Source of the DNA: Archangium sp.
GTDB taxonomy: Bacteria; Myxococcota; Myxococcia; Myxococcales; Myxococcaceae
Assembly: GCA_030695565.1 (NCBI GenBank)
Contig: JAUYRZ010000081.1
Location: 1-40,033, forward strand
Length of the DNA: 40,033 bases
Reading direction: 5' to 3'
Under the pieces are notes generated by a model. That model was given only the letters and a program-made list of their open reading frames with translations, had not been told where the DNA came from and searched no databases. Numbering within the stretch: position 1 is the stretch's first letter; each line of letters begins with the position of its first letter. The translations under genes and the position numbers were made by a program. Positions 3,326 through 36,972 of this stretch are shown here, one piece after another.

Positions 3326-3335
3326 CGGTGCGTTT

Positions 3336-4313: not shown

Positions 4314-4425
4314 GTCGCCGCACCATACCGGGGCCGGTGGGGCTTGGTCTGATCACTGCGTGTCCGATCAGCGAGGCCGCCACAGGGGAGACCGGAGCGG
4401 TTCGAAATGAAGTACGCCCCTGATC

Positions 4426-5205: not shown

Positions 5206-5211
5206 GAACGG

Positions 5212-5221
5212 CCCCCCCCCC
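5212..5221. other. Run of ten C bases between convergent genes
   Basis: A homopolymer of ten C lies in the 52-base gap between two converging genes. It is followed by CCGGT and, about twenty bases on, ACCGG, which could pair weakly. No clear terminator is visible. The tract is a likely site of length variation or sequencing error. Confidence 0.5.
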
Positions 5222-5257
5222 GGTCCTCCCGAGCCTCCCGAACAACCGGTGTGCGAT

Positions 5258-21687: not shown

Positions 21688-22545
21688 TCAGAGGCCTCGT
21701 TCGACCAGATCAGAGACGACCGACTCGTAGAACCCCGGCGCATCGAAGCCGAGCGCCCAGCCCACCTGCGCCCAGTGATCCGCTTCGATCCGCCCGCACG
21801 TCACGCCCCATGACTGCGAGGTGACCGGCACCAGCCCGTCGTTTTCGCCCGCCTTCAATTTCAACAGCTGCCAGGTCGGAAACAGCAGCGGGTTCAAGCC
21901 GCGGAACGTCGCCTTCGCCAACCAGCTTCCGTAGAAGATGCCCTCTTGATCGAGCACCTCCTCGTTGAAGCGCTTCATGCGCTCGGTGGTGAGTTCGAGC
22001 AGCCCGTGTGCATCGAAGCCGCCCTTGTCGAGCAGCAGCTTGGTGGCCGGCGCGACCAGCCACAGGCCTGATCCGAGATCAGCCAACGGCGTGCCCCGGT
22101 GCGGCGTGCCCACCGTGATGATCGAAGCGATGCGGCCACCGAGCTTCAGCTTCGACGCCGCATACCGGGCATCGAGCCCGCCCATGCTGTGCGCCACGAT
22201 GTTCACCCGCTCGGCGTCGAGCAGCTCCAGCGCCTTCGCCAACTCGGCCGCGCGCGAAGAGATCGTCGCCGTGGGGTGCACCTTGAACGAGTACACGCGC
22301 GTGCCGAGCTTCTCCAACCGCGAGCCCACGCCCCGGAAGTACTTGCTGCGAATCGGCCCCCACTTCAGCTCATCGAACCCCAGAATCCCGTGCGCGAGCA
22401 CCACCGGGGAGCGCAGCTGTGGGCCGCGCTTCTTCGGTATCTCGGCAACGCGTTTGCGGCGGTACCAGATGAACCAGGCGAGGGCAGCCGCCCCGGCGAA
22501 CAACGCCAGGAAGAACGCCAGCAGCAGCCACGGTTCCACCACCAT
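21688..22545 (-). CDS. Membrane-anchored triacylglycerol lipase (alpha/beta hydrolase)
   Basis: A 285-residue protein with an N-terminal anchor (WLLLAFFLALFAGAAALAWF) and a bacterial lipase fold. Oxyanion motif AHGILGFDELKWG (residues 51-63), nucleophile Ser120 in NIVAHSMGGLDARY, acid Asp236 in GENDGLVPVTSQSWG and base His257 in ADHWAQVG make a full triad. The oxyanion and nucleophile motifs fit LipA-like family I lipases. No lipase-specific foldase gene is nearby. The catalytic domain should lie outside the inner membrane, judged from the single N-terminal span followed by KKR residues, though the orientation is not certain. Substrate lipid unknown. It converges on the GIDE-like gene with 16 bases between their ends. 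Confidence 0.88.
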   Translation of the reverse strand: MVVEPWLLLAFFLALFAGAAALAWFIWYRRKRVAEIPKKRGPQLRSPVVLAHGILGFDELKWGPIRSKYFRGVGSRLEKLGTRVYSFKVHPTATISSRAAELAKALELLDAERVNIVAHSMGGLDARYAASKLKLGGRIASIITVGTPHRGTPLADLGSGLWLVAPATKLLLDKGGFDAHGLLELTTERMKRFNEEVLDQEGIFYGSWLAKATFRGLNPLLFPTWQLLKLKAGENDGLVPVTSQSWGVTCGRIEADHWAQVGWALGFDAPGFYESVVSDLVERGL

Positions 22546-22674
22546 TCACCTCTCTTACGACACCTGCAGATCCCAGTGGATTACCCATGCTCCACAAGGG
22601 CCGCTGTCCCTTCTGGCCCTCCTCAATCACTTCATGGTGTTCCGGAGTCCCACAGCGGGCACGGATCGAGCAGA

Positions 22675-24804
22675 ATGGCTGCCGCGATGCGCCCCTCGAA
22701 CCTTCTTCTCTGTGCCCTGGCGCTGTCCTCCTGCGAAGGGAGCCTGTTCGGTCCCCGCTCCATCCCCGGTCCCGGGCCGACGGGGGTCAAGCCGGTCACG
22801 GTCATCCCGCCGCCGGCCGAGAAGTGCAAACCGGGCGTGCACGAGGTGCCCAAGCTGCTGCGGGTCTCGAACTTCGAGTACCAGTCCATCGTGTCCGACG
22901 TGTTGACCGCGCCGGTGGGTCACGAGCTCTTCGCCCGGTGGACTCCGGTCGCGCAGGTCTACGGCTTCGACACCATGAGCGAGACGCGCATCGACGGTCA
23001 GGCGTTGATCGAACAACTGGCCACCGCTGAAAAGCTCGCCGCCGTGGTGCTGGCCACCCCGGGTCTCACCGCGCACTGCCCCGCGCCCGTCGCGCCCACC
23101 AACCCGGCTTGTTCGCTCAAGGCCAGCTACACCTCGAACATCGACTTCTCCGACGCGCAGGGTCGCGAGTGCTGGTCGTACCTCGACTCCAGCGGCACCC
23201 CGATGGTGTTCGATAACGTGCGCGCGCTCTGGAAGAAGGTGCCCGACGAGACCGTGCTGCTCTGGCAGAACGGCACGCACCCGGGCTCCACCGTCGACTC
23301 CGTGCGCCGCTGGTTGGCCGCGGTGAGCGGCTCGGTGACCTTGACCGGCGCCTTCAACGACGCTGATCCAGGTGGCGGCGACGGCGTGGTGGCCACCATT
23401 CGCAAGAACGGCGTGCAGGTGTGGACGCGCTCCGTGCCCAACGGCGGCAGTGGCCCCTTCACCTTGCCCATGCAGATCAACCGCGGCGACACCATCGACT
23501 TCGTGATCAACCGCAACGCCGAGCCCAGCTACGACAGCACCGCGTTCAACGTGACCATCGAGCTGACGCCCACCGCGCCCAAGTCGAACTGGACGTGGAC
23601 CAACTGCGTGGGGCCGCTGGTCAGCCGCCTGGCCAGCCGTGGTTTCCGAAGGCCGGTGCGCCTCGACGAGCTCACCGACTACCGCACGCTGTTCGAGAGC
23701 TCGCGCCAGGAGGCCGCGACCGCGGGTTTCCCCGAGCCCGCCGACGAGGCGCTCTCGGCCGTGGTGCAGGCGGTGTTGCTCTCGCCCAACCTGGTGTTCA
23801 AGCCCGAGCTGGTGCCGCAAGGCCTCGATGCGCAGGAGCGCGGCTTCGGTCTGGCCTCGCGCCTCTCGCTCTTCGTGCGTGGCTCGGTGGCCGATGAAGA
23901 GCTGTGGAACCTGGCCGGCACCGGCGCGCTCGCGGACCCCAAAGTGGTCGAAGCGCAGGCCCGCCGGCTGCTCGACGCGGATCTCCCGCGCTTCTCTCAA
24001 CACTTCGGTGGCCAGTGGCTCGACTACCGCGAGACGGAAGACTTAGGCCCGCTGACCGCGTCGATGCAGGCCGAAGCCGCCGACGTGTTCAGCGAAGTGC
24101 TGGCGAACGATCTGCCTGCCGAGCGCCTGATGCGCCCCGGCTTCACCGTGGTCGACGCACCGCTCGCCGCGCACTACGGCCTGCCCTTCACCTCGCAGAA
24201 GCTGGTGACCCCGCTGCGCGGCGGGGTGCTCGACCAGGCGTTGTTCCTCACCCGCACCGCGACGGGCTCCGAGTTCCGTCGGCCGATTCACCGCGGCTTG
24301 TGGGCGTTGACGCGCCTGATGTGCCGCTCGTTGCCCCGCCTCGACGCCGCCACGCTCGAGGAGATCAGCAACTCGGTCAACGCCATCGATCGCAACCTCT
24401 CGCTGCGCGAACAGATGGAGATCCACCGCAACGACTCCGCCCGCTGTGGTGGTTGCCACAACATGATGGATCCCATCGGGCTGGCGCTGGAGAAGTACGA
24501 CGCGCGGGGCCTTTGGCGCGACCGCTACCCGAACGGCGTCGCCATCACGAGCGACCTCGAGCTCGACGGCACGGTGGTCACCGACCCGCACTCGTTGGCC
24601 GCGGTGATCGAGTCTTCGCCTGACTACCGCGCGTGCGTGGCGAGCAAGCTGCTCACCTTCGGCCTCAACCGCGGGCCGCTCGAAGGCGAGCAGTGCGTGG
24701 CCCAACGAATCGCCGCGCCCATCAACGGCGTGGCGCCTTCACTCAAGCAGATGACCATCGAGTCGCTGCTCACGTCGATCGAGCTCACGGAGGTCTCGCC
24801 ATGA
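22675..24804 (+). CDS. DUF1592/DUF1588/DUF1585-type exported protein with inserted beta-sandwich and CxxCH motif
   Basis: A 709-residue protein; the start is one of two ATGs (22675 or 22687), and the second gives a lipoprotein-like signal MRPSNLLLCALALSSC. Blocks in order: a DUF1587-like region (VPKLLRVSNFEYQSIVSDVL), an inserted beta-sandwich of about 160 residues (LTGAFNDADPGGGDGVVATI, INRGDTIDFVINRNAEPSYD), DUF1595 (RGFRRPVRLDELTDYRTLF), DUF1592 (VVQAVLLSPNLVFKPELV onward), DUF1588 with CGGCH at 591-595 (ARCGGCHNMMDPIG) and DUF1585 (CVASKLLTFGLNRGPLEG). CxxCH is a possible c-type heme site. These multi-domain proteins are common in planctomycetes and myxobacteria, always with a DUF1552 partner. 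Their reaction is unknown; links to polysaccharide or redox chemistry are speculative. Confidence 0.9.
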   Translation: MAAAMRPSNLLLCALALSSCEGSLFGPRSIPGPGPTGVKPVTVIPPPAEKCKPGVHEVPKLLRVSNFEYQSIVSDVLTAPVGHELFARWTPVAQVYGFDTMSETRIDGQALIEQLATAEKLAAVVLATPGLTAHCPAPVAPTNPACSLKASYTSNIDFSDAQGRECWSYLDSSGTPMVFDNVRALWKKVPDETVLLWQNGTHPGSTVDSVRRWLAAVSGSVTLTGAFNDADPGGGDGVVATIRKNGVQVWTRSVPNGGSGPFTLPMQINRGDTIDFVINRNAEPSYDSTAFNVTIELTPTAPKSNWTWTNCVGPLVSRLASRGFRRPVRLDELTDYRTLFESSRQEAATAGFPEPADEALSAVVQAVLLSPNLVFKPELVPQGLDAQERGFGLASRLSLFVRGSVADEELWNLAGTGALADPKVVEAQARRLLDADLPRFSQHFGGQWLDYRETEDLGPLTASMQAEAADVFSEVLANDLPAERLMRPGFTVVDAPLAAHYGLPFTSQKLVTPLRGGVLDQALFLTRTATGSEFRRPIHRGLWALTRLMCRSLPRLDAATLEEISNSVNAIDRNLSLREQMEIHRNDSARCGGCHNMMDPIGLALEKYDARGLWRDRYPNGVAITSDLELDGTVVTDPHSLAAVIESSPDYRACVASKLLTFGLNRGPLEGEQCVAQRIAAPINGVAPSLKQMTIESLLTSIELTEVSP
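24789..24794 (+). promoter_or_regulatory. Strong ribosome binding site GGAGGT
   Basis: A near-perfect Shine-Dalgarno sequence lies six bases before the ATG at 24801, inside the last codons of the preceding gene. It fixes the start of the DUF1552 gene. Confidence 0.75.
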
Positions 24805-26096
24805 AGGCCGACCGGCGCACAGTGCTGAAGTGGATGGGTGGTTCGCTCGCGTTGCCGCTGCTGGCGCCTCACCTGGCGAACGCGCAGACGGTTACCCGCA
24901 AACGCTTCATCGCGGGCTACGTGCCCAACGGCGCGCACATGCCTGCGGGCGCGAACGGCGCGTGGACCTGGGCCGAGTCGCTGGCCCCGCTGGTCTCGCG
25001 CGGACTTCAGGCCAACACCATGGTGATGCGCGGCATCTTCAACGGCTTCCCCGCAGCCGACCCGCACTGGCAGAACTGCGCGGGCTTTCTGTCGTGCAAG
25101 CCCATCGAGCTGGGAGACCCCGGCGTCGCGCGGTGCGGCATCACGCTCGATCAATACGTGGCCGATCGCCACCCGTCGTCCCTGCGTTCGTTGGAGTTGG
25201 GCGGGCTGTACTACCACGTGCATCCGCTCAACGATCACCCCGGCTATTCCAACGACTACCTCAACCGCATCGCGTGGCAGGCGCCCGACAAGTTCCGTTC
25301 GCCCATCCCCGACCCTGCGCAGCTGTTCGCGAAGTTGTTCGGTGGCGAGTCGGGCAGCGCCGCGCAGATCAACTACCTGCACAACCGCAAGCGCAGCATC
25401 CTCGACTCGCTCCACAAAGACGCCGATCGCATGTCGACGCGGCTGCCTGCGACGTACCGGCCGGTGTTGCGCTCGTACATGGAGACCGTGCGCGAAGTGG
25501 AGATGGGCCTGGGCACCGTGTCGACCTGCACGCCCAACCTCACGCAGCCCACGCAAGACTTCGGCTCGCCGAACACGAACTACGTGCTGCGGTTTCAGCT
25601 GATGCACCAGATGATCGTGCTGGCGATGCAGTGCGGGCTGACCAACGTGGCCACGCTGATGTACGGCCCGGGCGTCTCTGAGCTGATGAACTTCCCCGAG
25701 GCGCTCGGCGGCGGGGCCGGTCACCACGCGGTCGCCCATCATGGCGGCACGCAGTCGTCGATCGACCGGCTCAAGCGCATCAACGAGGTGCAGGTGGGGC
25801 TGCTGGCCGACCTGCTCACCCGGCTCAAGACGGCGAACCTGCTGCAGGAGACGCTGGTGCTCTACGGCTCCGACATGTCTGACGGCAACGTGCACCTCAC
25901 CGAGAACCTGCCGATGCTGCTGTGCGGCGCGGGTGCGGATCTCAGGTTCGGCCAGGAGATCGGCTCGACCTCGGCGCGCCGCCCGTTGTCCGACCTGCAC
26001 ATGGACATCGCCCAGTTGCTCGACGTCACCACCCTCACCTCGTTCGGCAGCGGCGTGTGCGCCAGCACCGGGCAGACCATGGGTGTCCGCGTTTGA
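24801..26096 (+). CDS. DUF1552 protein with Tat signal
   Basis: A 431-residue protein. Its ATG overlaps the previous stop by four bases (ATGA) and has a strong ribosome binding site. The leader, DRRTVLKWMGGSLALPLLAP ending ANA, has the twin-arginine motif and Ala-x-Ala cleavage site of Tat export, which suggests the protein folds in the cytoplasm, perhaps with a cofactor. Characteristic DUF1552 segments include RKRFIAGYVPNGAHMPAG, VMRGIFNGFPAADPHWQNCA and TLVLYGSDMSDGNVHLTENL near the C-terminus. DUF1552 proteins are distantly related to the alkaline-phosphatase superfamily/DUF1501 group. Pairing with a DUF1592-type gene is constant in the family and suggests one complex or pathway. Substrate unknown. 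Confidence 0.93.
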   Translation: MKADRRTVLKWMGGSLALPLLAPHLANAQTVTRKRFIAGYVPNGAHMPAGANGAWTWAESLAPLVSRGLQANTMVMRGIFNGFPAADPHWQNCAGFLSCKPIELGDPGVARCGITLDQYVADRHPSSLRSLELGGLYYHVHPLNDHPGYSNDYLNRIAWQAPDKFRSPIPDPAQLFAKLFGGESGSAAQINYLHNRKRSILDSLHKDADRMSTRLPATYRPVLRSYMETVREVEMGLGTVSTCTPNLTQPTQDFGSPNTNYVLRFQLMHQMIVLAMQCGLTNVATLMYGPGVSELMNFPEALGGGAGHHAVAHHGGTQSSIDRLKRINEVQVGLLADLLTRLKTANLLQETLVLYGSDMSDGNVHLTENLPMLLCGAGADLRFGQEIGSTSARRPLSDLHMDIAQLLDVTTLTSFGSGVCASTGQTMGVRV

Positions 26097-26142
26097 GCTG
26101 AGCGGGTCCCCCCCAACCCCCGCTTCGCAGGGCGAGGAGAGC

Positions 26143-27021
26143 TCAGGGCTTCTCGAGCTGGCTGAAGAAGAGCGGGCCTTCTCCTTTGTGCTTCGCCGCG
26201 TACATCGCCGCGTCGGCCTTCTCGAGCAGCTCCTGCGCCGAGTGGCCATCGTCGGGGTACACCGCGATGCCGATGCTCGGCTTGATGGTCAGGTTCAGCG
26301 CGCGCACTTCACACCTGGTCTGCATCGATTTGGAGAGCTTGAGCGCGAGCGCTTCGATGACGGGCAGGCTGCCCGCTTCGGTCATCAGAAATTGAAACTC
26401 GTCTCCGCTGCGGCGGCAGGCGGTGTCTTCAGCGCGGGTGATGGTCTCCAGCCGCTCACCGATGATCTGCAGGCACGCGTCGCCCACGTCGTGCCCGTGC
26501 GTGTCGTTGATGTGCTTGAAACGATCGAGGTCGATGAACATCACCGCGACCCGCCATTCGTGACGGCGGGCCTGCGACAGGGCGACGTCGAGGCGATCCT
26601 TGAAGAGGGTGAAGTTGGGCAGCCCGGTGAGCGGGTCGTGCAGCGCGTCTGACCTCGCCTTACGCGCCTGGCGGCGGCTCTCCATCAGCGCGGCGTAGGT
26701 CTTGGCGAGCTCGTCGCTGAGGCTCTTGCGCTCCTGAATGCCCTCGGCGAGCGAAGAGGTCACCGAGGCGAGCTCGTCCGCGCTCTCCTCCACGCGGATC
26801 TCAGCATCTTCACTCTTCGCGAGCGCCAGCTTGATGGCGGGAGAAGAGCCGCTTTCATCGACCTCCTTCTTCAGAACGGTGTTCACCGTCGAGAGGTCGA
26901 CCGCGCACGCCTCCACCATGTCCTTGGCGTGGTTGGTGTGACCGCGCGCCTTGATGAGCGAAGTCGGCTCGCGGGATTGTGGGGCCTGTTTCGCCGGGGA
27001 CCGATGCAGGAGTGTTTTCAC
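26143..27021 (-). CDS. Soluble GGDEF-family protein with SGDEF motif
   Basis: A 292-residue protein without membrane spans. Residues 1-65 are unassigned, 70-125 look like a helical coiled coil, and 126-290 are a GGDEF domain. It keeps HDPLTGLPNF, the metal-binding FIDLDRFKHINDTHGHDVGD, and an inhibitory I-site RAED (196-199) five residues before the signature. The signature is SGDEF (205-209) instead of GG(D/E)EF, so the first Gly is Ser. GGDEF enzymes make cyclic di-GMP; whether this variant is active cannot be told from sequence. The intact I-site and metal Asp residues argue for retained binding at least. The coiled coil probably promotes the dimer needed for activity. Confidence 0.92.
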   Translation of the reverse strand: MKTLLHRSPAKQAPQSREPTSLIKARGHTNHAKDMVEACAVDLSTVNTVLKKEVDESGSSPAIKLALAKSEDAEIRVEESADELASVTSSLAEGIQERKSLSDELAKTYAALMESRRQARKARSDALHDPLTGLPNFTLFKDRLDVALSQARRHEWRVAVMFIDLDRFKHINDTHGHDVGDACLQIIGERLETITRAEDTACRRSGDEFQFLMTEAGSLPVIEALALKLSKSMQTRCEVRALNLTIKPSIGIAVYPDDGHSAQELLEKADAAMYAAKHKGEGPLFFSQLEKP

Positions 27022-27113
27022 AGGCCCCCAATATGTGCACGGCCAGATGGGCGCGAATCAGCAGTTCAGCCCAGCTCGATCGGCCCCTGGAGTTCCTGAA
27101 CGGCCAGGGAGCC

Positions 27114-27857
27114 TCAGCGCGCGCAGCTGCGGGTGAAGTCGGAGTCGGCGAGGAACTGGTCGAGCACCGCTTTCCACGAGGTCCACTTGTGACCGCCCGG
27201 CACCTTGAACACGTGCCCTTCCGGCAGCGCCGCGGCGAGCAGCGACGCCGATTCTCCCAGGCGATCTTCCGTGCCCCAGCCGAGGTACAGGTTCGGCCCG
27301 GGCTCTTTGTTCGCCGTCACGCCCTGCAACCAGCGCCACACTTCGCGCTGATACGTGTCGGAGGTGATCGGGCCCTTCGCCGGCGCCTGCCAGGCGGCGA
27401 GCCCACCGGCCGCGCGGATCTCTTCGCTCAACGAGCGGTCACCCAGGAACGGCGCCAGCAGCAGCACGCCGTTCACGTCGGCCGCGTGCTCGCGCGAGTA
27501 CAGCAGGGTACCCATGCCGCCCATCGACATGCCCATCACCCAGGTCTGCTGGTAACCCTTCGCGCGCGCCGGGGCGACGACGTCGGCGTGCACCCGCTCG
27601 GGGAAGAGGCCGCGCATGTAGTAGCCGAGGGTCGCGTCGGCGGCGACCACGTCGACCGAGAGGCTCTTCTGCCGCAGCGCTTCGATGAAGCCGTACTTCA
27701 CGAAGTCGGAGGCCTTGTCACCGGCGCCAGGAAGGAAGACCACCAGGCACTTCGCGTCACCGCCGGGCAGCTCGTCACGCAGCGAGGTCATCGGCGTCGG
27801 CGCGGGCATGAAGACGGCACAACCGGAGCAGCACAGGAGGAGCGCGAGGGTCCGCAT
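27114..27857 (-). CDS. Alpha/beta hydrolase lipoprotein
   Basis: A 247-residue protein with a lipoprotein-like leader (MRTLALLLCCSGC; Cys13 most likely). An alpha/beta hydrolase follows: oxyanion region VVFLPGAGDKASDF, nucleophile Ser111 in VMGMSMGGMGTLLYS, acid Asp198 in LGWGTEDRL and base His223 in VPGGHKWTSW. The shape resembles esterases and cutinase/dienelactone-hydrolase relatives. Exported location is inferred from the leader; the substrate is unknown. Transcribed divergently from the sigma factor gene across about 48 bases, so the promoter regions must overlap. Confidence 0.87.
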   Translation of the reverse strand: MRTLALLLCCSGCAVFMPAPTPMTSLRDELPGGDAKCLVVFLPGAGDKASDFVKYGFIEALRQKSLSVDVVAADATLGYYMRGLFPERVHADVVAPARAKGYQQTWVMGMSMGGMGTLLYSREHAADVNGVLLLAPFLGDRSLSEEIRAAGGLAAWQAPAKGPITSDTYQREVWRWLQGVTANKEPGPNLYLGWGTEDRLGESASLLAAALPEGHVFKVPGGHKWTSWKAVLDQFLADSDFTRSCAR

Positions 27858-27905
27858 GGCGGAGGTCCTACTCAGCGTGAAGTTCTCATGCGAGCCTGCT
27901 GCGTG

Positions 27906-28547
27906 ATGAGTGATGATCTCACGCTGGCCCGCCGTGCGCTCGAAGGAGATGCCGCCTCGTTGGCCGAGGTGGACCGCCGCATCATGGCCGAGAGTTCACG
28001 CGTCGCCGCCGCGCAGAACTTCCCCGCGGACGAGCTGGGTCAGTTGCTGCGCGAGCGGTTGCTGGTGGGGGAGGCGCCGAAGTTGTCGCGCTACGACGGC
28101 AGTGGACCGCTCTCGGCGTGGCTTCGCGCGGTGGCCGTGCGGATCTCCAGCAACGCCCGGCGAAGTGGTGCGCAGGAGGACGTGGTGTCCACCGTGCCCG
28201 AGGCGGCGCTCGCGGAGCCGAACCCCGAGCTCTCGTTGCTGCGGCTGCAGTATCGCGTGCAGTTCCGGGAGGCGTTCGTCGAGGCGTTGGGCAAGCTCGA
28301 GGCGAAGGAGCGCACCGTGCTGCGGTTGCACACGCTCGATGGGCTGAGCCTGGCGAGCATCGGGACCATGTTTCAGCGCGACGCTTCGAACGTGTCGCGG
28401 TGGCTGGGGCGCATTCGGGAGCAGTTGTTGACGGAGACCCGGCGGGCGCTGGCGAAGCGGCTGGCGCTGGAGGGGTCGGAGCTCGATTCGGTGATGCGCG
28501 TCGCTGACAGTGAGCTCACCATGAGCCTCTCGGGCCTGCTGACCTGA
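27906..28547 (+). CDS. ECF-like sigma-70 family RNA polymerase sigma factor
   Basis: A 213-residue protein from ATG 27906; an in-frame ATG at 27888 is possible, while any earlier start would run antisense through the hydrolase gene. The N-terminal half has a region 2-like helical part with YDGSGPLSAWLRAVAVRISS. The C-terminal half has sigma region 4: ALGKLEAKERTVLRLHTLDG, then SLASIGTMFQRDASNVSRWL as the helix-turn-helix. The linker carries PNPELSLL. This divergent form with a glycine-rich GSGPLSAWLR motif is common in myxobacteria. It is followed by the tandem PF13629 protein after 106 bases and by the kinase, so it probably serves that signalling cluster. No classical anti-sigma gene is next to it, but the kinase begins with a zinc-finger of the anti-sigma type. 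Confidence 0.88.
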   Translation: MSDDLTLARRALEGDAASLAEVDRRIMAESSRVAAAQNFPADELGQLLRERLLVGEAPKLSRYDGSGPLSAWLRAVAVRISSNARRSGAQEDVVSTVPEAALAEPNPELSLLRLQYRVQFREAFVEALGKLEAKERTVLRLHTLDGLSLASIGTMFQRDASNVSRWLGRIREQLLTETRRALAKRLALEGSELDSVMRVADSELTMSLSGLLT

Positions 28548-28653
28548 GAGAATCCCCGCGGCCGGCGAATTCGGTACGTTGGCTCGACTGCGTCGTTTCA
28601 CCGCAAGGAAAAGCGAATCGCTGTGTCTGCCCAATCAGAAAGGGAAACACACC

Positions 28654-29187
28654 ATGCCGCTCCACCGACTCGCACTGCTCCTCGCCGTTTTCACCACCTC
28701 GACCGCCTTCGCCCAACAGCCGCTCCGGCTCGCAGTCGGCGCGCAGAAACACCTCACCATCCCCGGCCTGCAGCGCGTCGCCGTGGGAGACCCCACCATC
28801 GCCGACATCAAGACGCTCGGCGTCAGCGAGCTGGTGGTCCTCGGCGCTTCCCGGGGCCGCACCACCTTGCTGGTGTGGACCGCTGGCGCGACCACGCCCG
28901 ATCGTTTCGAAGTGACCGTGACCGGGCCCGGCAGCCTCACTTCAGCCCCCACCCCGATCGACACCACCCCCGAACCCAGCTTCACCGCGACCTTGAGGCC
29001 CGGAGAGAGCACGACGCGCCCGACGCCGAACCTCAAGCGCGTCGCCATCGGGGATCCCAACATCGCCGACTTCACCACCGGCACGGACACCGTCACCCTC
29101 CTGGGCGTGAGCGCGGGGCAGACCACCGTGCTGCTCTGGTACGCCGATGGCCACCGCGAGCAGTGGCTCGTGACCGTGGTGAAGTAG
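28654..29187 (+). CDS. Secreted protein of two tandem secretin/pilus N-terminal (PF13629-like) domains
   Basis: A 177-residue protein starting at 28654 behind an AAAGGG ribosome binding site. Signal peptide MPLHRLALLLAVFTTSTAFA with Ala-x-Ala cleavage. Two copies of the T2SS-T3SS_pil_N domain follow, residues about 23-90 and 108-177, each with RVA(V/I)GDPxIAD, then (V/L)LG and TTxL(V/L)W. In pilus and secretion systems this domain sits at the N-terminus of outer-membrane secretins such as CpaC/RcpA, where it is periplasmic. Here it stands alone, without any secretin. Nine bases separate it from the kinase gene, whose extracytoplasmic end has the same domain. A periplasmic ligand or partner of that kinase is the simplest reading, which is inference. 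Confidence 0.88.
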   Translation: MPLHRLALLLAVFTTSTAFAQQPLRLAVGAQKHLTIPGLQRVAVGDPTIADIKTLGVSELVVLGASRGRTTLLVWTAGATTPDRFEVTVTGPGSLTSAPTPIDTTPEPSFTATLRPGESTTRPTPNLKRVAIGDPNIADFTTGTDTVTLLGVSAGQTTVLLWYADGHREQWLVTVVK

Positions 29188-29196
29188 AACTGCGCG

Positions 29197-30477
29197 ATGC
29201 AGTCGGCCTGCCCTGACGAGAACGAGCTGGTGCGTTTCGCGCGGGGCGCGTTCGACGAGGTGTCGGGGGCGAGTCTCTCTTCGCATCTCGACTCGTGCAC
29301 TTCGTGCCGGAAGGCGGTGGCCGAAGCCGCCAGCGATGTGCCGCGCGCGCCGTTCACCGTGCAGACCGGGGCGCGGGTGGGCCGCTACGAGGTCGATGCC
29401 CTGCTCGGCTCGGGTGCGATGGGTTCGGTCTTCGCTGCGCGTGATGCGTCGCTCAACCGGCGGGTGGCGATCAAGCTGCTCCACGCCACGGGCGATGCGC
29501 AGTCTCGCGCCCGCTTGGAGCGCGAGGCGCAGGCGATGGCCCGGCTCAACCACCCACACGTGGTGACGGTGCACGAGCTGGGAGACTGGGCGGGTGGCCG
29601 CTTCATCGCGATGGAGTTGGTGGAAGGGCAAACCCTCGACGCCTGGCTTCCCACCGCGCGACCTGAGGAGCGGCGGCGTGTGTTGCTCGATGCAGGACGC
29701 GGTCTCTTCGCCGCGCATCAGGCCGGCGTGGTGCACCGTGATTTCAAGCCGCACAACCTGCTGGTCGGTGTCGAGGGCCGGGTTCGGGTGACGGACTTCG
29801 GCTTGTCGCGGCCCAGCGAAGGAGACACCGCTCGGGAAGAATCGGGTGGGCTCCTCGCCACGGCGCACGGGGCGCTGGTGGGAACGCCCGCGTGGATGTC
29901 ACCTGAGCAACTCGACGGTCGCACCGCCGAGGCGCGCAGTGATCAATTCGCCTTCTGCGTGGTGTGGGTCGAGACGCTCACCGGCCGCCGGCCCTTTCAA
30001 GGCGAGAGCAAAGCCGCGCTGCGGGAAGCCATGCGGGGTCCACCGGTGTTGGGCAGTGCGCTGAGCTCAGTGGAGTGCGCCGCCTTGCGACGGGGGCTCT
30101 CCGAAGATCCCGCCGCTCGCTTCGAATCGATGGACGGACTGCTCGCCGCGTTGACCCGCCGGCCCCGCATGCCGTGGATCTCAGGCGTGGGCGTGGGCGT
30201 GGCCGTGCTCCTGGGCGCGCTGGGAGGTGCGTGGCGAATCGACCGGAACAAGACGCCGGATCCTCCTCCCCCGCTCGAGCTGCAGGTCGGCAAGATGCAC
30301 CCGCTCGTCGTGGACTGCCTCAAGCGCGCCGCGGTGGGAGACCCGAACATCGCCGACGTGAAGACGGTGGGCGTACAGGAGCTGCTGATCCTCGGTGTTG
30401 CTGCAGGGGAGACCACGCTGATCCTGTGGGATTGCGATGATCATCGGGTCAGCTACACCGTGCGCGTCTCGCCCTGA
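29197..30477 (+). CDS. Membrane Ser/Thr kinase with zinc-finger N-terminus and extracytoplasmic PF13629-like domain
   Basis: A 426-residue protein. Residues 1-45 form an anti-sigma-like zinc finger with His30, Cys34 and Cys37 (HLDSCTSC) and a further Cys5. A complete Hanks-type kinase domain spans about 64-320: GSGAMGSVFAA glycine loop, Lys93 in VAIKLL, HRD at 180-182 (HRDFKPHN), DFG at 200-202 and a TPAWMSPEQLDG activation segment. A membrane span covers 327-346. The outer part, residues 357-426, is one PF13629-like domain (RAAVGDPNIADVKTVGVQEL then LILG, TTLILWD). Thus a single protein joins a possible sigma-binding finger, a kinase and a pilus/secretin-type sensor. It is the third gene of the sigma factor cluster and its 3' end overlaps the convergent FHA gene by 25 bases. 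Confidence 0.95.
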   Translation: MQSACPDENELVRFARGAFDEVSGASLSSHLDSCTSCRKAVAEAASDVPRAPFTVQTGARVGRYEVDALLGSGAMGSVFAARDASLNRRVAIKLLHATGDAQSRARLEREAQAMARLNHPHVVTVHELGDWAGGRFIAMELVEGQTLDAWLPTARPEERRRVLLDAGRGLFAAHQAGVVHRDFKPHNLLVGVEGRVRVTDFGLSRPSEGDTAREESGGLLATAHGALVGTPAWMSPEQLDGRTAEARSDQFAFCVVWVETLTGRRPFQGESKAALREAMRGPPVLGSALSSVECAALRRGLSEDPAARFESMDGLLAALTRRPRMPWISGVGVGVAVLLGALGGAWRIDRNKTPDPPPPLELQVGKMHPLVVDCLKRAAVGDPNIADVKTVGVQELLILGVAAGETTLILWDCDDHRVSYTVRVSP

Positions 30478-30995
30478 CGAGAGGGGCGCAGCGGCACGGT
30501 CGACACGCGCGCCTTGAACGACTTCGAGTCGTAGAACGCCAGCCGCACCCCGCCCAGCTCGATGGCCTGACCTGAAGCGAGCTGCTGCGTCGCGCCCGGG
30601 CCGACCACGTCTTCGCCGACCAGCGCGGGATCGTTCACCGGCGTCACGCTCCAGATCTTGTCCTTCAACTCGAGGCGCGCGTGAAAGCGGGACACCGTCG
30701 GATCAGCGATGACGATTTCGTTGTCCACCGCGCGGCCGAGGCGAATGGCCGTGCCGTCGGGGACCTTGAGGCCGAAACACAACGCATCGCCGTTCCCCTG
30801 GCGGGGGGCGTGCCGTTCTTCGAGCCGGGTCTCCGCGACGCTCTGCTCGGCATCACTCTCGGGCACCGCCCAACCACCGGGCTCCCAGACCAACCAGCTG
30901 TGCGAGTAGCGCATCAGGAAGGCATCGGGGCCGAGCGCGAGCTGCCGTGTGAGAACTGACATCAGGTACGCGGGCATTGCGGGTGTCGCAGGCAC
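30453..30995 (-). CDS. FHA domain protein, convergent with the kinase
   Basis: A 180-residue cytoplasmic protein from a GTG at 30995, or from ATG at 30977 or 30962. Residues about 80-165 are an FHA domain: IRLGRAVDNEIVIADPTVSR then FHARLEL gives the conserved Gly-Arg, Ser-Arg and His residues that hold a phosphothreonine, and VNDPALVGEDVVGPGATQQL continues the sandwich. The first 75 residues are unassigned (YSHSWLVWEPGGWAVPE). FHA proteins read kinase output, so a link to the neighbouring Ser/Thr kinase is likely although the genes face each other and overlap by 25 bases. Convergent overlap means they are not one operon; mutual antisense effects are possible. Confidence 0.88.
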   Translation of the reverse strand: MPATPAMPAYLMSVLTRQLALGPDAFLMRYSHSWLVWEPGGWAVPESDAEQSVAETRLEERHAPRQGNGDALCFGLKVPDGTAIRLGRAVDNEIVIADPTVSRFHARLELKDKIWSVTPVNDPALVGEDVVGPGATQQLASGQAIELGGVRLAFYDSKSFKARVSTVPLRPSRQGETRTV

Positions 30996-31038
30996 GTGGA
31001 CGACTGTAGCCGAGAGGTCATGTGGGCGAGGGTGGGTC

Positions 31039-32268
31039 TCAAGTCAGCCTCTCACCCCGACCCTCTCCCCGCTGGCGCAGGGCGAGGGAGAGAAGCAGAC
31101 AGAGCGCTGGTGCTCCCGTCACTGAGCAACCACCACGTGGTTCAGGTTCGGGTTCGGCGACCGGAGCGGTGCAGACACCTGCTTCACACGCACCGTCGCA
31201 CGACGTGCCGCACGCACCACAGTTCGCCGCATCGTGGAGCAGGTCGACGCACTGGCCTCCACACGCATCGCACGGCTGACACCGCACGCCCCCGTCGTCC
31301 CAACCGCAGCCCAGCCCACGCGCAGCACAGTCGAGCTGCTCCGGACCACCGGGACCACACCACTGCGCAACGCCACGCGCACACACACCATGACCATCCA
31401 ACGCGCCGCACGGAGCAGGCAGACACCCCAGGCCCTCGCTCTCACTGCGCCAACCACACGCGCTGCCCGTCGCCGCACACTCACGCGGACGCCACCAGCC
31501 CGCCACGCACGCCCACGCCACGTCACCTTCGCAGCGCGGCGCCGTATCGACGGCACACGGCTCGCTCAACGCCGGGAGCGGTGCACTCATGCGCTCCATC
31601 ACCCACTCGGAGAACACGTCAGCCCGCGGGCCCCACGTCGAACCCTCACAGCTCGCCGCGCCCGCGCTCACCAGCGCCACCACCCGGGTGAACGGCGCGG
31701 TCTCGAACGAACGCACGAACGGCCCGCCCGAATCACCCCGGCACACGCCCTGCGTCTGACTGCGACCGACCGTGAGCAAGACCGGCCCCACCGAAATCAG
31801 CGGGAACGAACCCGCCGTCACGCCCGCCATCGGCGACGTGCCGAAGCCGCCGCCATGGATCTCCAGCGGCTGCCCGACCCAGCGCTGATCAGCCACGTCC
31901 CGGTTCAGCTCGAGCGGCGTCAACTCGGGCAACTCCACGCCCAGGGTGACCAGCGCCACGTCGAGTGAAGGGTGCTTCTCCACGCGCACCAGCGGGAAAC
32001 GAGGGTCACCCGCCACACCGCCCGGAATGAAGTCGACCTGCCCCGCGGTCACCTGCTCATTGAAACAGTGCCCCGCGGTCACCAGGTGGCGCGAAGCGCT
32101 CGCCCACCCGGTGCACAACATCGCATCACCCACCATCAACCGGCCGATGGCGCGTTGCTGCGAGACGCTCAGCAGCACCGACGCCGTCCCCCCGATGAGG
32201 GAGGAAGACGCCACCTCCTGCTCCTGGCACGCGACCAGGAGCAGGGCTGCGAGCGAGACGGCGCGCAT
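31039..32268 (-). CDS. S1-family serine protease lipoprotein with Cys-rich region and degenerate MYXO-CTERM
   Basis: A 409-residue protein with lipoprotein signal MRAVSLAALLLVAC (Cys14). The chymotrypsin-fold catalytic triad is intact: His67 in TAGHC, Asp103 in LDVALV and Ser180 in CRGDSGGPF. The residue at the bottom of the S1 pocket (two before the Cys of CRGDSGG) is Gly, not Asp, so specificity differs from trypsin. A Cys-rich part with about 20 cysteines occupies residues 235-375. The C-terminus, GGCSVTGAPALCLLLSLALR, resembles a MYXO-CTERM segment, although the final residues come from a dispersed repeat copy that overlaps the stop codon. Four bases separate its start from the end of the 919-residue lipoprotein gene, so it is the third gene of that operon. 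Confidence 0.9.
   Translation of the reverse strand: MRAVSLAALLLVACQEQEVASSSLIGGTASVLLSVSQQRAIGRLMVGDAMLCTGWASASRHLVTAGHCFNEQVTAGQVDFIPGGVAGDPRFPLVRVEKHPSLDVALVTLGVELPELTPLELNRDVADQRWVGQPLEIHGGGFGTSPMAGVTAGSFPLISVGPVLLTVGRSQTQGVCRGDSGGPFVRSFETAPFTRVVALVSAGAASCEGSTWGPRADVFSEWVMERMSAPLPALSEPCAVDTAPRCEGDVAWACVAGWWRPRECAATGSACGWRSESEGLGCLPAPCGALDGHGVCARGVAQWCGPGGPEQLDCAARGLGCGWDDGGVRCQPCDACGGQCVDLLHDAANCGACGTSCDGACEAGVCTAPVAEPEPEPRGGCSVTGAPALCLLLSLALRQRGEGRGERLT
31048..31095 (+). repeat. Dispersed palindromic repeat, copy D, overlapping a gene's 3' end
   Basis: CCTCTCACCCCGACCCTCTC, a GCTGGCGCAG loop, then GGCGAGGGAGAGA. It has the same layout as the copies near 2.0-2.2 and 12.5 kb. On the minus strand it codes for the last residues (QRGEGRGERLT) of the protease, so the repeat supplies its stop-codon region. 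Confidence 0.6.
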
Positions 32269-32272
32269 GGCT

Positions 32273-35032
32273 TCAGGGAATCGGCGCGATGGTGACCGTC
32301 ACACCCGAGCGCGTCACCGAACCATCGGTCTCCAACGCCACCGTGACGTTCGGCGAACACACGGTCATCTGCTGGTTGATGTCACCCGTCCACCCGCTGC
32401 CGGAGGGGCTGGTGTTCATCACCTGCCCTGCGGCGTTGTAGATGACCACGCGGTCGTACCAGGGCTCGGTGAGCCCGCTGACCGTGACGCTCGCGCAAAT
32501 CTTACCCGCGCCCGCCGTGTCGAACGTCGTCTTGTACGCCGCGAGCACGTTGCCCATCGCCGGCGCTGAGGACCAACGGTTGGGGTTGCTCGAGGTCGCG
32601 TTGCAGTAGCCGCCCGCGCAGCTGGTGGGTGAACGCCAGACCGCGGGACCGGCCGCCGTGGCGCCCGCGCACATGCCCGACTCGCCCGCCTTCTTGCTCC
32701 AGGCGGTCGACTCCTTCCAGGCGAACCAGGTCTGACTGGCGCTGCTGAAGCGGGCGATGGTGAGGTCGAGCACCTTCACTTCGACCTTCCAGCACTTCCA
32801 CACGCAGATCTTCCGGCCGACGTAGGCGACGATGGACACCGTGCCCGACGGCCCGGTCAGCGTGATGGGGCCTTCGTAGTCGATGCCGAACTCAGCGTGC
32901 TTGAAGCACCCCGCGTTCGCGTCGTACTCGAGCCGCGCCTTGGGCCGGATGAGCGGCGTGAAGTCGAGCCGCACGATGGTGAGCGAACCCTGCACACCGG
33001 CGCGCGCCATACCGACCGAGACCCCGCCAAAGACGCTGGCTTCCAACGCGATGTACGGCCCTGCCGCGAACTCCACCCCGTAGAAGGGCGCGCGGCCGCT
33101 GGTCTTGCCCGTCTCATCGATGAGGAACTTGCCGCTGAAGGTCATGCCCGACGAGAAGCCCGCTGACGCTTCGATGGTGAGCGGAACCGGGCCGGCCATG
33201 AAGAAGAACTCCTTCTCCCACTTCACCTGGCGGCCGGTCTTCTTCTTGTCCTTGGGCTGGTTGTTGGCCGTCTTGGTGGCCTCGTTGCGCGGCGAGGCGC
33301 TGGGCTCGGCTTCGAACAGCGGGCAGTAGGTGATGTCGCCGTCCTTGGTGCACCACGTGGGGCTGAACTGCGCGTTGAGCAGCGTGTAGCCCCACACGTT
33401 GATGTTGGCGCTCGCGCTCCACGTGTTGTGCAGGCGCAGAGTGGACCAGTCGACCTGCGCGCCGAGGGTCAGCACGCGCAGGTTCTGCTTGAGCACCATG
33501 CCGTCGACGCTCGCCGTGGCCTTGCGGAACTGCGCCACCGCCACGCCCTGGCGTTTGTCGACCGAGGCCAGCGAGCTGTTGCGGAAGCTCGCGCCAAACC
33601 AATCATTGCCAAACCCATTCGCCAGCGAGTCGTCGCGGAGCACGAAGGGGTAGGGCGACGTCAGATCAGACATCGACCCGGTAGCGCCTTGATCGTCGAC
33701 GTCGGTCTCGGCCGCCGTTGAACTGTCGGCAGGGGCCATGAACACCACCGGTTTGCGCGCCACGTTGTCGGCCAGGTTGTTCTGGTACTCGGCCTGGGTG
33801 GTGCTCAAGCGGTACACGAGCGTGCCGGCCACTTCGCCGTTCGCGTCGAGACCGGGGTTGAGCGACGCCAGCCGGCGGGTCATCGCCAGCAGGCGGGTGT
33901 CTTCGGCGCTCAGGTGCAGCTGGTAGACGGCGTCGCGGCCGTCGTCGTTGAAGATGGTGGCGCACTCATCGGGCACCACGGGATCTTCGGTGCCACCGTC
34001 GTCGTCGGCCGCGGTGGGCGTGCCGGGTCGGCAGTCAGCCGAATACCGCACCTGGGGCTGCGGTCCGTTCTCGGTCTCCGCCAGGAGCGAGAACTTGCGG
34101 GCGGCGTCGTACACGTAGCTGGTGGCGTCGGGCGCGGCGGCGAAGTCCTGGCCGTGCGCGGTGAACCACGCTTCGCCGAGGTCCTTGCCGGGGGTCTGCA
34201 CCTTGTGGCCGGGCAGCTCGAGCTCGAAGGTGGCCGTCACGGGCTCGGTGATGTTCAACGCCTGAGCGCTCATGCGGGCGCTCATGGTGAAGGCTCTCTC
34301 GACCCCGCGCTCGCTGCGGTCGAGCAGGAAGCTGGCGTTGTCGAGCGACGAGAAGAGCACGCGCAGGTTCGGCTGCGCGGGCGTGCCGATGATCACGGTG
34401 GCCGGGGCGAAGACCAGCGCCGCGTCGTCGAGCCGCAGCGTGCCGTCGGCGCCAGCCATGCCCGGCGCGGAGTAGTCGAGGCGGTACTCGGTGTCGCTGA
34501 TGCGCTGGAGCGGCACTTCGTCGACCGCGAAGAAGAAGCCGTACAGCCCATCGCTCAGGCTGCTGGGCGCCGACAGGTAGTACTCCACCGTGCGCTGCTC
34601 GCCGGGCGCGAGGTCGCGAATCACCACCTGGCCCAGGAAGGCGCCCCCGAGCTCGGTGTCGTCATCGAGGTTGTCGAGGCGAGCTCGCAGCTCTTGAATG
34701 GTCGCCTGCACCGGTGAGACGGCGTAGCGGATGAGCACCAGTTCGCGGTGCGTGGTGCCGGCGTTCTTGATCTTGAAGCTGCGGGTCTGCGGGCTGCCCA
34801 CCTGGAGCGACTCGGGCACGTCGACCTGGGTCATCTCGAATTCGCCCAGGTTGAAGTCCTCCACGATGATGTTCAGGTCGGGCGCCTTCACGCACTCGTT
34901 GTGAGCCGAGTCGAAGACGGTGCCCAGGCCGCAGGTGACGGGCGGCGTGCTGCAACCCGAACCGAGCGCCAACAGCGCGCCGACGGTGAGGGTCAACAGG
35001 CGCACGGAGAATGACGACTGATTGGTTTTCAT
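32273..35032 (-). CDS. Large lipoprotein of unknown function (919 residues), partner of HEAT-repeat protein
   Basis: A 919-residue protein with a lipoprotein signal ending LALGSGC (Cys27). Residues 50-330 read as beta-sandwich domains (VGSPQTRSFKIKNAGTTHRE, DLAPGEQRTVEYYLSAPSSL), with a low-complexity Asp/Thr patch near 345. A long beta-rich middle has alternating strands and glycine turns (AGPVPLTIEASAGFSSGMTF, GPYIALEASVFGGVSVGMAR). The C-terminal 110 residues with several Cys look like a pre-peptidase-type beta domain (VVIYNAAGQVMNTSPSG). I recognise no enzyme motif. Its ATG shares one base with the stop of the HEAT-repeat gene and its end is four bases from the protease start. A surface scaffold is likely. 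An open beta-sheet like that of lipid-transfer proteins is a low-confidence idea for the middle part. Confidence 0.82.
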   Translation of the reverse strand: MKTNQSSFSVRLLTLTVGALLALGSGCSTPPVTCGLGTVFDSAHNECVKAPDLNIIVEDFNLGEFEMTQVDVPESLQVGSPQTRSFKIKNAGTTHRELVLIRYAVSPVQATIQELRARLDNLDDDTELGGAFLGQVVIRDLAPGEQRTVEYYLSAPSSLSDGLYGFFFAVDEVPLQRISDTEYRLDYSAPGMAGADGTLRLDDAALVFAPATVIIGTPAQPNLRVLFSSLDNASFLLDRSERGVERAFTMSARMSAQALNITEPVTATFELELPGHKVQTPGKDLGEAWFTAHGQDFAAAPDATSYVYDAARKFSLLAETENGPQPQVRYSADCRPGTPTAADDDGGTEDPVVPDECATIFNDDGRDAVYQLHLSAEDTRLLAMTRRLASLNPGLDANGEVAGTLVYRLSTTQAEYQNNLADNVARKPVVFMAPADSSTAAETDVDDQGATGSMSDLTSPYPFVLRDDSLANGFGNDWFGASFRNSSLASVDKRQGVAVAQFRKATASVDGMVLKQNLRVLTLGAQVDWSTLRLHNTWSASANINVWGYTLLNAQFSPTWCTKDGDITYCPLFEAEPSASPRNEATKTANNQPKDKKKTGRQVKWEKEFFFMAGPVPLTIEASAGFSSGMTFSGKFLIDETGKTSGRAPFYGVEFAAGPYIALEASVFGGVSVGMARAGVQGSLTIVRLDFTPLIRPKARLEYDANAGCFKHAEFGIDYEGPITLTGPSGTVSIVAYVGRKICVWKCWKVEVKVLDLTIARFSSASQTWFAWKESTAWSKKAGESGMCAGATAAGPAVWRSPTSCAGGYCNATSSNPNRWSSAPAMGNVLAAYKTTFDTAGAGKICASVTVSGLTEPWYDRVVIYNAAGQVMNTSPSGSGWTGDINQQMTVCSPNVTVALETDGSVTRSGVTVTIAPIP

Positions 35033-36972
35033 TAGCGGACCCCTGCGGCCGGTGCGATGTAGGTGTAGATGTCTCGGCGCACGCGGCGCTCGGTGGTTGT
35101 CTTGAGGAGCTCACGCAAGGTGTCTGCGTTGGCGGCGTGCTGGGCGATGCCTTTGCCCAGCAGGTGAACCAGCTCGCCCTTCACGATGGGATCCTGTTCG
35201 GTGATGACGGCAGCGCGCGCCCACGAGGCCAGGGCCTCGGAGTCAGGCAACTGCCCCGCGGTGCGCACGGCGCCACGGCGCACTTCGAACGAACGCTCGT
35301 TCGTGAAGGCGGTGGTGAAGGCGGGCAGGGTGGCAGGGCCCATGCGGCGGAAGGTGCCGAACGCGGCGACGCGCACGGCCTCGTCTCTCGAGCTGAGTGC
35401 GGGTGCGGCGAGCGCCAACACGCGCGCGTCGTCGCCCACGTTCGACAGGCCGTCGAGCGCGAGCACCTGCTGACGCACATCCGCCGAAGCGAGCAGCGCG
35501 CTCAGGTTGCGCACCACTTCGGTGGTGAGGGTGGGGTTGGCCTTGCTGACGTCGCCCAACGAGCCGTACACGTTGGTGGCGATCGACAGCTTCGCGCCCG
35601 GCGCGCCGACCTGCTGGCTGGCGAGGGTGCGGCGCAGCTCCCAGATGCCGGCGGCGAGCGCGGGTTCGGGCCGCTCGAGGCTCATCATCGCGATCAACGC
35701 CTGCTCCTGTGACTCGGGTTTGAAGCCGCTCCCGGCGGCGGCCTGGAGGAGCGCGGTTTGCGCTTCACGATGGCCGGCCGAAGCGAGCGCCGCCCAGCCG
35801 AAGCCGAAGGCGCGTTCGTCTGTTTTCGGATCGAGCGCGTCGATGGAACGCGCCGTGGCCAGCGACTGCGACGGGTTCAGGCGCAACCACGCTTCGAGGA
35901 AGCGCACGCCCAGGCCGAGGTTGCCGGCCACCTGCGTTCGGTAGGTGCTCAGCGCGGTGGCGGCGTCGAGGCCTTCCACCAGCGGGCGGGTGTGCAGGTC
36001 GACGTCATAGAAGCGGGCGCGCGCGAAGGCAGGGTCGGCCAGGGTGGCCTTCGCTCCGGCGAGCGTGGTGGGCAGCTTGTTCGAGGGCAGCGGCGCTTCG
36101 ACGGCGCTGAAGGTGTGCGCGTCAGCGGTGAAGAGCGAGCCGCCGACCATCAACGAGGTCTCTTCGTTCGAGGTCAGGCGCTCCACGCTGTGGCGCGCGA
36201 GGTTGAAGGCGATCTTCGTCTCGGAGCGTGCGATGCGCGCTTCGCCCGTCAAGGAAAGCTCGGCGCTGTCGAGCGAACTGCGGGTGATGCGCGTCTTGTT
36301 CTTGATCAGCTGCGCGAGCCCACCGTCGACTGCTTTCACCTCGTAGGTCGCGGTGAAGCCGGTGTCGACGCCCTGCTCCTGGGTGACCCAGCGTGCGGCG
36401 CCGGGGGCGGCCAACGCCACCTGCAGCGGCTCGATCAACCGCGAGATGGCCCGCTCCAGCTCGTGGGGATACTTGTCCATGAAGGACAACGCGCCCATGC
36501 GGCCAGTGGCGTCGAAGCGCACCATGAACGGTGCTTGAAAGAGGTCCTGCCGCGGGTCGGCTTCTCCGTCGACCAGGTACTTCACGTCGTGCAGGCGGGC
36601 CGCGACGGTCCAACCGCTGGCGTCCACCGAGATGACCCGCGTGTGGAGGACCGCGTCGATGTCGTAGCGCAACGACTGGATGCGCGAGAGGTCACGGCTG
36701 GAGGCCACACGGGCGGTGCCCAGCGAGCGGGTCATCGCAGAGGCCACGCGGCTGTAGTCGACCTGCGCGGTGCCCTGGTACTGCAGGCGCCAGGCGCGCT
36801 CGACGCCGAGCTTCGTCTGCCAGCTCAAGGACGCCGGGGCGGGCGCGGTGACCGAGGTGATCACCGGAGGTACGGCCTGCGAGGAGGACTGAGCGAGCGC
36901 CAACGGCGTCCACGCCTGACTCAGCCCCAATGCGACGAACTGCCATGACCTGATTCTGCTCTTGAGTTTCAT
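35032..36972 (-). CDS. Exported HEAT-repeat protein, first gene of a three-gene unit
   Basis: A 646-residue protein with a long signal peptide ending ALA (residues 1-28), then a beta-rich first half of about 300 residues (LGVERAWRLQYQGTAQVDYS, ITRSSLDSAELSLTGEARIA) and a helical second half of HEAT-like repeats from about residue 360 (DDARVLALAAPALSSRDEAV, RVAAFGTFRRMGPATL, RRGAVRTAGQLPDSEALASW). The order beta barrel-like then helical repeats recalls the vitellogenin/microsomal-transfer-protein N-terminus of animals, and the VERAWRLQYQG segment fits its first strand, but the likeness is structural guesswork. Its product should be periplasmic or outer-membrane facing. Its TAA stop overlaps the next ATG by one base. 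Confidence 0.82.
   Translation of the reverse strand: MKLKSRIRSWQFVALGLSQAWTPLALAQSSSQAVPPVITSVTAPAPASLSWQTKLGVERAWRLQYQGTAQVDYSRVASAMTRSLGTARVASSRDLSRIQSLRYDIDAVLHTRVISVDASGWTVAARLHDVKYLVDGEADPRQDLFQAPFMVRFDATGRMGALSFMDKYPHELERAISRLIEPLQVALAAPGAARWVTQEQGVDTGFTATYEVKAVDGGLAQLIKNKTRITRSSLDSAELSLTGEARIARSETKIAFNLARHSVERLTSNEETSLMVGGSLFTADAHTFSAVEAPLPSNKLPTTLAGAKATLADPAFARARFYDVDLHTRPLVEGLDAATALSTYRTQVAGNLGLGVRFLEAWLRLNPSQSLATARSIDALDPKTDERAFGFGWAALASAGHREAQTALLQAAAGSGFKPESQEQALIAMMSLERPEPALAAGIWELRRTLASQQVGAPGAKLSIATNVYGSLGDVSKANPTLTTEVVRNLSALLASADVRQQVLALDGLSNVGDDARVLALAAPALSSRDEAVRVAAFGTFRRMGPATLPAFTTAFTNERSFEVRRGAVRTAGQLPDSEALASWARAAVITEQDPIVKGELVHLLGKGIAQHAANADTLRELLKTTTERRVRRDIYTYIAPAAGVR

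Follow-up and report, generated by a model that had tools for sequence, protein, structure and literature searches.

The window, a stretch of 40,033 nucleotides from Archangium sp. (contig JAUYRZ010000081.1, positions 1 to 40,033), carries three consecutive plus-strand genes at positions 27906-30477. They encode an extracytoplasmic function (ECF)-type sigma factor, a secreted protein with two PF13629 domains, and a transmembrane Ser/Thr kinase whose outer end is a third PF13629 domain. Together they probably make up a self-regulating signalling unit across the membrane, with a docking domain of the tight adherence (Tad) pilus type as its sensor and with that sensor and the secreted partner as its conserved targets. 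By sequence comparison, the outer domains share ancestry with the Tad secretin CpaC/RcpA, through its N-domain, and in sister kinases with CpaB/RcpC, through its SAF domain.

The sigma factor gene (27906..28547, 213 residues) matches TIGR03001 (Sig-70_gmx1) with 182.6 bits, above the curated cut-off of 154.6. It is followed after 106 bases by the gene for the secreted protein (28654..29187, 177 residues), which consists of a signal peptide, assigned by eye, and two PF13629 domains (28717-28923 and 28990-29178), and after a further 9 bases by the kinase gene (29197-30477, 426 residues). The kinase begins with a Cys-His-Cys-Cys finger (C5, H30, C34, C37; 29197..29340), continues with a Ser/Thr kinase domain (29386..30156; Pkinase, 130.4 bits) in which K93, E110, D182, N187 and D200 are kept, and has a single putative transmembrane segment (residues 326-342; 30172..30222), helical in the predicted model and hydrophobic by eye, before its extracytoplasmic PF13629 domain (30271..30471). 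The original prediction, made from the DNA letters, had described this trio, and its gene order, strand and gaps agree with the coordinates as re-read; the RVA(V/I)GDPxIAD-like and LG..TTL.LW motifs that it reported in all three PF13629 copies are visible by eye. Its assignment of the outer domains to PF13629 is borne out by profile searches, which gave 55.2 and 43.7 bits for the domains of the secreted protein and 51.9 bits for the kinase tail (cut-off 23; 93.1 bits for the whole secreted protein, 48.1 for the tail in a whole-protein scan of the kinase). Beyond PF13629, Pfam gave no match above cut-off in the secreted protein.

A Pfam scan of the secreted protein and of the kinase found the secretin domain PF00263 in neither. 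The earlier statement that no secretin gene is present holds for the window contig, which has no match, but fails for the genome as a whole, where four secretin genes lie on other contigs and one of them (on C112) includes PF13629. The suggested tie to secretins is strengthened by the ancestry of the domains. When seven other PF13629 domains of the same genome were compared with that of the kinase, the Tad-type C112 secretin gave the best score with its N-domain (164; 34/65 residues identical, 52%), and the two secreted-protein domains from the kinase's operon came lower (148 and 136). Of those two, the first is itself closest to this secretin (182), and the second to the kinase domain (136) and then to the secretin (131). 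A paralogous kinase of the source genome, encoded on C121 (locus L112), has two SAF domains in place of PF13629. The first is 61% identical (41/67) to a CpaB of the same genome and the second 36-42% identical to the four CpaB-like domains compared; the match of this kinase to the CpaB model TIGR03177 covers the SAF part only and, at 43.3 bits, is under the cut-off of 71. Against the PDB the SAF tail gave no good sequence match, the one found having an E value of 0.84. Locus L112 (C121:13000-23000) comprises a sigma factor gene (3580-4380), a promoter-like element at 4387 and the finger-kinase gene (4420-6261).

The RcpA N-domain, monomeric by itself, binds the RcpC dodecamer; the available text describes two contact sites and also speaks of the C-terminal beta-hairpin and of a linker needed for oligomerisation, and does not name a SAF domain (PMC12307814). 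Taken with this binding, the secretin-like and CpaB-like tails suggest that one kinase lineage has used domains from both partners of one joint. The pilus link thus drawn is suggested by ancestry rather than by gene linkage or binding data.

Searched against PDB sequences, the secreted protein gave matches to RcpA (8odn, 6.1e-9) and to a second secretin (8jvb, 5.9e-5); with a profile built from ten secreted proteins both came back (1.3e-12 and 1.7e-11) along with one weak match. The predicted model of the secreted protein has a mean predicted local distance difference test value of 83.3, and each of the three PF13629 domains is modelled with high confidence as a seven-stranded fold. Fold comparison of the secreted protein returned many immunoglobulin (Ig)-like domains, the best being 4uid_B (Z 10.1; root-mean-square deviation, rmsd, 1.7 over 68 residues), together with VirB9-type domains (8rt6_B, Z 9.2, rmsd 1.7 over 69; 6gyb_B, Z 7.0, rmsd 2.6 over 72). 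RcpA is absent among the 50 fold matches listed; its N-domain is described as VirB9-like and as unresolved in the structure (PMC10499894). The VirB9-type matches agree with that description, but the fold is a common one and the agreement proves little.

With the secreted protein as query, a PF13629-like match was obtained in 49 of 60 genomes, the source included, many of them in frames of secretin length as judged by length, not individually. At least 11 clusters of sigma factor and PF13629-kinase, the window's included, were found in at least 10 genomes (40 regions fetched). A sigma factor alignment, run against named genomes, gave 33 loci, 28 of them at 4e-20 or better; at L159-L163 the match is confined to a short stretch of the sigma factor. 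All but three of the 28 come from records with myxobacterial titles. Two of the exceptions are labelled 'Deltaproteobacteria'; the third, labelled 'Comamonas' (L140), clusters with Myxococcus in the trees, and its label is probably wrong.

Altogether 43 sigma-kinase clusters were compared. They were picked by PF13629 similarity, by sigma factor similarity or by hand (20 loci among the matches listed), and natural frequencies are not implied by the counts; six loci were substituted by copies of the same place from named records. The order sigma factor, separate secreted PF13629 gene, PF13629 kinase, all on one strand, is present in 15 of the 43, among them a Myxococcus xanthus record. As 14 of these lie outside the source genome, the adjacency noted in the original prediction recurs and is not a product of chance. 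The trio kinases have one outer PF13629 domain in 14 cases and two in L042, and in four trios (L043, L048, L139, L141) two neighbouring genes are separated by about 1-1.5 kb. Three further clusters have kinases with several outer PF13629 domains (three in L137, three in L138, five in L051) and no separate secreted gene; these look like the secreted protein and the kinase merged. One cluster has a SAF + PF13629 kinase (L134), whose frame reaches the contig end, and four have kinases with two or three SAF domains. The remaining 20 have other tails, 378-694 residues past the kinase domain, with no PF13629 or SAF; several of these show tetratricopeptide-like repeats by eye. The nearest relative of the window cluster, L131, has a kinase 72% identical to that of the window, and the flanks are not shared: matching frames are confined to the three-gene stretch (positions 22000-36000 compared).

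The kinase tree (43 rows; L111, in which no kinase was found, and L120, L121, L124, L125, L149, L150, L153, L156 and L158 excluded) has a branch, with support 69, that parts the PF13629 and SAF kinases from the others. On their side of it the SAF kinases are one inner group (99), and the SAF + PF13629 kinase stands beside that group (99). The sigma factor tree requires two changes where the kinase tree requires one, and both trees flag long branches among the remaining clusters.

The functional tie among the three genes, proposed in the original prediction, gains a shared promoter-like element, GCAA[C/G]-N15-GTGTC. The window copy, GCAAG-N15-GTGTC, is at 28603..28627 on the plus strand, 26 nucleotides upstream of the start codon of the secreted protein. 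The element was noticed as GCAAC-N15-GTGTC by reading the DNA between the sigma factor gene and the next gene in Myxococcus/Archangium-type clusters. Its shape is like that of ECF promoters, which have AAC in the -35 part and GTC in the -10 part. The exact form follows the sigma factor gene in 21 of 23 PF13629/SAF clusters (15/15 trios, 3/3 multi-domain clusters, the SAF + PF13629 cluster and 2/4 SAF clusters) as against 0 of 25 other clusters with the same kind of sigma factor, and the remaining two SAF clusters have it one base off (GCAAT). The 25 controls are 17 loci with TIGR03001 hits (L111, L120, L121, L124 and L125 included) and eight loci chosen by the sigma factor scan rather than by TIGR03001 score; the stretch searched at L043 was longer, about 1600 bases. 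The window has a single match in 40 kb, where shuffled sequences average 0.31 and 27 of 100 have one. At 24 of 25 listed places the element lies 8-45 nucleotides upstream of a start codon (an alternative start for L140), and at L138 there is no clear ATG start downstream.

The element also stands directly 5' of secreted PF13629 genes on other contigs, at L053 (8 nucleotides), L056 (21) and L238 (28). These belong to genomes G002 and G018, whose kinases have no secreted neighbour. The expectation by chance for such placements is about 0.007 among some 30 non-secretin PF13629 loci outside the clusters (C123, G018:C45 and 28 others), a rough estimate, made when the element had already been picked. 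In G018 the SAF-PF13629 tail of the kinase is echoed by the secreted protein encoded at L056 on another contig, which reads PF13629-SAF-PF13629 and has the element ahead of its gene. The stricter TGCAAC-N15-GTGTCA, which the window copy does not match, has eight occurrences in six genomes, six of them at the operon, and its reversed control one. Together these placements suggest that the element acts as a promoter that the sigma factor of the cluster would read.

Two Myxococcus genomes share one additional strict-form site, which falls at a kelch-like gene's 5' end (L232, L233). A wider regulon was sought by scanning genomes for the element: the strict form marks chiefly the operon itself, and the loose form is too common to read. 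A loose match by a CpaB gene (L223:6948; the same letters in G003 and G002) lies within a coding frame of 281 residues and was not counted.

The N-terminal finger of the kinase is likely an anti-sigma domain, as judged from its residues. The zinc-binding anti-sigma (ZAS) motif is an HxxxCxxC finger plus an upstream Cys, and the kinase has the same N-terminal arrangement as the ZAS anti-sigma factors ChrR and RsrA. It differs from them in the fusion of the finger to a kinase and a membrane helix, and its matches to the anti-sigma models are weak (ChrR, E 0.0019; RsrA, 0.18). In an alignment of 13 of the 23 PF13629/SAF kinases, the four finger residues and the five catalytic residues listed above are invariant (13/13). 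The zf-HC2 model scores above its cut-off in the kinases of two of eight relatives scanned (L051, 30.0 bits; L061, 26.3) and below it in six.

In the mechanism proposed here, the finger would hold the sigma factor at the inner membrane, while the outer PF13629 domain would dock with the secreted PF13629 protein and probably with the Tad conduit, either CpaC/RcpA or the CpaB/RcpC ring. The pairing and activity of the kinase would shift as docking changes, phosphorylation of the finger or of the sigma factor would free the sigma factor, and the freed sigma factor would transcribe the secreted partner and the kinase from the element just 3' of its own gene, closing a feedback loop. Sequestration, docking, phosphorylation and the direction of feedback are inferred. 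The proposal keeps the outline of the original prediction, in which the domains bind each other or a secretin: here they may bind each other or the pilus machine, this binding may control the kinase, and the finger may hold the sigma factor. In the kinase PknS, forms without the outer domain are phosphorylated in cells and the full-length protein is not, and the cut forms failed to restore function (PMC13147305). This pattern implies that outer domains can restrain such kinases; here the restraint would depend on the kinase's outer domain and on the secreted twin. The element's recognised targets being the secreted protein and the kinase, the circuit looks as if it limits or primes itself. A tentative extension is that the kinases are checkpoints of pilus assembly, their copies of the secretin N-domain or CpaB SAF competing for, or plugging into, the alignment ring. 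The free or assembled state of the conduit would then set the activity of a dedicated sigma factor, and the secreted PF13629 protein would be a soluble competitor that resets the loop.

Several observations weigh against the proposed unit. The PF13629 fold is a common Ig-like one, and the top structural matches are surface-layer and phage Ig domains. The window kinase scores 11.2 bits with zf-HC2, below the Pfam cut-off of 22.2. The branch uniting the PF13629 and SAF kinases is weak. If one mismatch is allowed, the element is present in 23/23 clusters and in 1/25 controls (L144). GCAAC-N15-GTGTCA has 18 hits in another six genomes, four of them at the operon (reversed control, 3), and none of the 14 off-operon hits was placed in the system, the surroundings having been viewed at L183 alone; genome-wide, the loose form is only moderately above its reversed control (42 v 30, 61 v 29, 60 v 45, 53 v 28). 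No element was found at the other fetched PF13629 genes of G022 or of the second cluster of G003, both of which have multi-PF13629 kinases without a secreted neighbour, and in six CpaB/secretin-type regions of the source genome (83 kb) the sole match sits inside a coding frame. The element was found by inspection in clusters that are kin by descent, and a Fisher value for its distribution overstates independence. The window cluster is also unlinked to Tad genes.

The last point would be expected if the circuit were closed on itself without a pilus, the secreted protein being a ligand or blocker of a kinase that senses another state of the envelope, for example of the wall or the surface layer. 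Such a circuit is possible though rather doubtful, and the same holds for its corollary that the Tad-like domains are merely borrowed Ig-like and SAF folds. It would agree with the placement of the above-chance element sites at the genes for secreted proteins and kinases, not at Tad genes, and with the occurrence of PF13629 outside Tad systems, as in MXAN_1370 in a minor-pilin/PilY1 cluster (PMC13190605). It accounts less readily for the recruitment, in one kinase group, of two domain types that resemble the two partners of one machine, and for the identities of 52% to the C112 secretin and 61% between the first SAF domain and CpaB (the second SAF being just 36-42%). That the three genes are neighbours by history, travelling together without joint action downstream of an ordinary promoter of another sigma factor, is very improbable. 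Clusters of one lineage do share descent, and the reading of the element by this sigma factor is inferred; yet the window and L131 share the trio and not the flanks, and the exact element, missing from the 25 other clusters, reappears at secreted PF13629 genes on other contigs.

An unlikely alternative to sequestration comes from the ECF43 family, in which the kinase would phosphorylate region 2.2 of the sigma factor, restoring a missing charge for polymerase binding, with the finger secondary. EcfP and EcfK are so described, and the family is defined by a sigma2.2 that has lost the acidic DAED/DxxD motif (PMC8999054, PMC13147305). The pairs EcfP-PknT and EcfK-PknS resemble the window locus in that the sigma factor has as its neighbour a Hanks-type kinase that spans the membrane and carries an outer domain; the kinase here has its catalytic residues intact. 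The present system departs from them in that its sigma factor retains acidic residues in the presumed sigma2.2, that its kinase starts with a Cys-His-Cys-Cys finger, and that the outer domain is Tad-like and has a secreted twin. The window sigma factor retains the acidic pair DE within PADELGQ, the stretch taken by eye as sigma2.2. In the alignment, with the region assigned in the same way, position 43 is acidic in 14/14 sigma factors (13 E, 1 D) and position 42 in 10/14, the window's among them; the other four keep just one acidic residue, a point in favour of the ECF43 scheme. The motif loss that marks ECF43 is thus not seen in these sigma factors. The finger is conserved in these kinases, and the word 'finger' is absent from the available text of PMC13147305. 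ECF43-type activation was dropped as the main mechanism for the retained acidic residues, which favour sequestration by the finger over direct activation of the sigma factor.

Related parts are found at other loci of the source genome. An ECF sigma factor gene is followed directly by two CpaB genes at L221 (C78:61000-73000; 4487-6992), the first CpaB having a repeated N-terminal SDYLW..SGRD stretch that is anti-sigma-leader-like by eye, with no Pfam match. At L223 (C131:152000-161900; 2914-6277) genes for an ECF sigma factor and a zf-HC2 protein lie upstream of a CpaB gene, so that ECF and Tad-type genes are neighbours here as well. A frame at L064 (C73:3000-13000; 4132-5436) combines weak tetratricopeptide-like matches with PF13629 and adjoins a weakly sigma-like frame. 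A protein of 201 residues (L226:11242-11844, on C114) has PF13629 and a weak BON-like match with no secretin domain, and looks like a lone secretin N-terminus. In genome G018, a different kinase (L080:3070-5139, on C709) ends in PF13629; no finger or sigma factor match was found there, and its PF13629 is possibly an independent recruitment.

Pairs of ECF sigma factors and kinases are already known. TIGR03001 sigma factors as a family adjoin kinases: 19 of 20 hand-picked family loci have a kinase frame in 8.8-10 kb. The other TIGR03001-type clusters (20 compared) differ from the present ones in having different kinase tails, no PF13629 or SAF, and no exact element. With Tad proteins the system shares homology in its outer domains, to the N-domain of RcpA or, among sister kinases, to CpaB SAF, but it has neither a secretin barrel nor an RcpC domain, and the domains are fused to a kinase and an anti-sigma-like finger. 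In the open-licence literature searched, no published account was found of a Tad-domain sensor kinase with a secreted twin and a shared element, nor of PF13629 together with a kinase.

The system may bear on how bacteria might sense the state of their Tad pili, which serve adhesion and, in Myxococcus xanthus, prey killing (PMC10499894). If the proposed unit is real, it would offer a receptor with a sensing part related to the structurally known RcpA and RcpC, alongside a candidate soluble partner, a sigma factor and a predicted promoter. The system also occurs in a record of Myxococcus xanthus, a species with good genetics. For one branch of the TIGR03001 sigma factors, a large family, the element would in addition supply a predicted target promoter.

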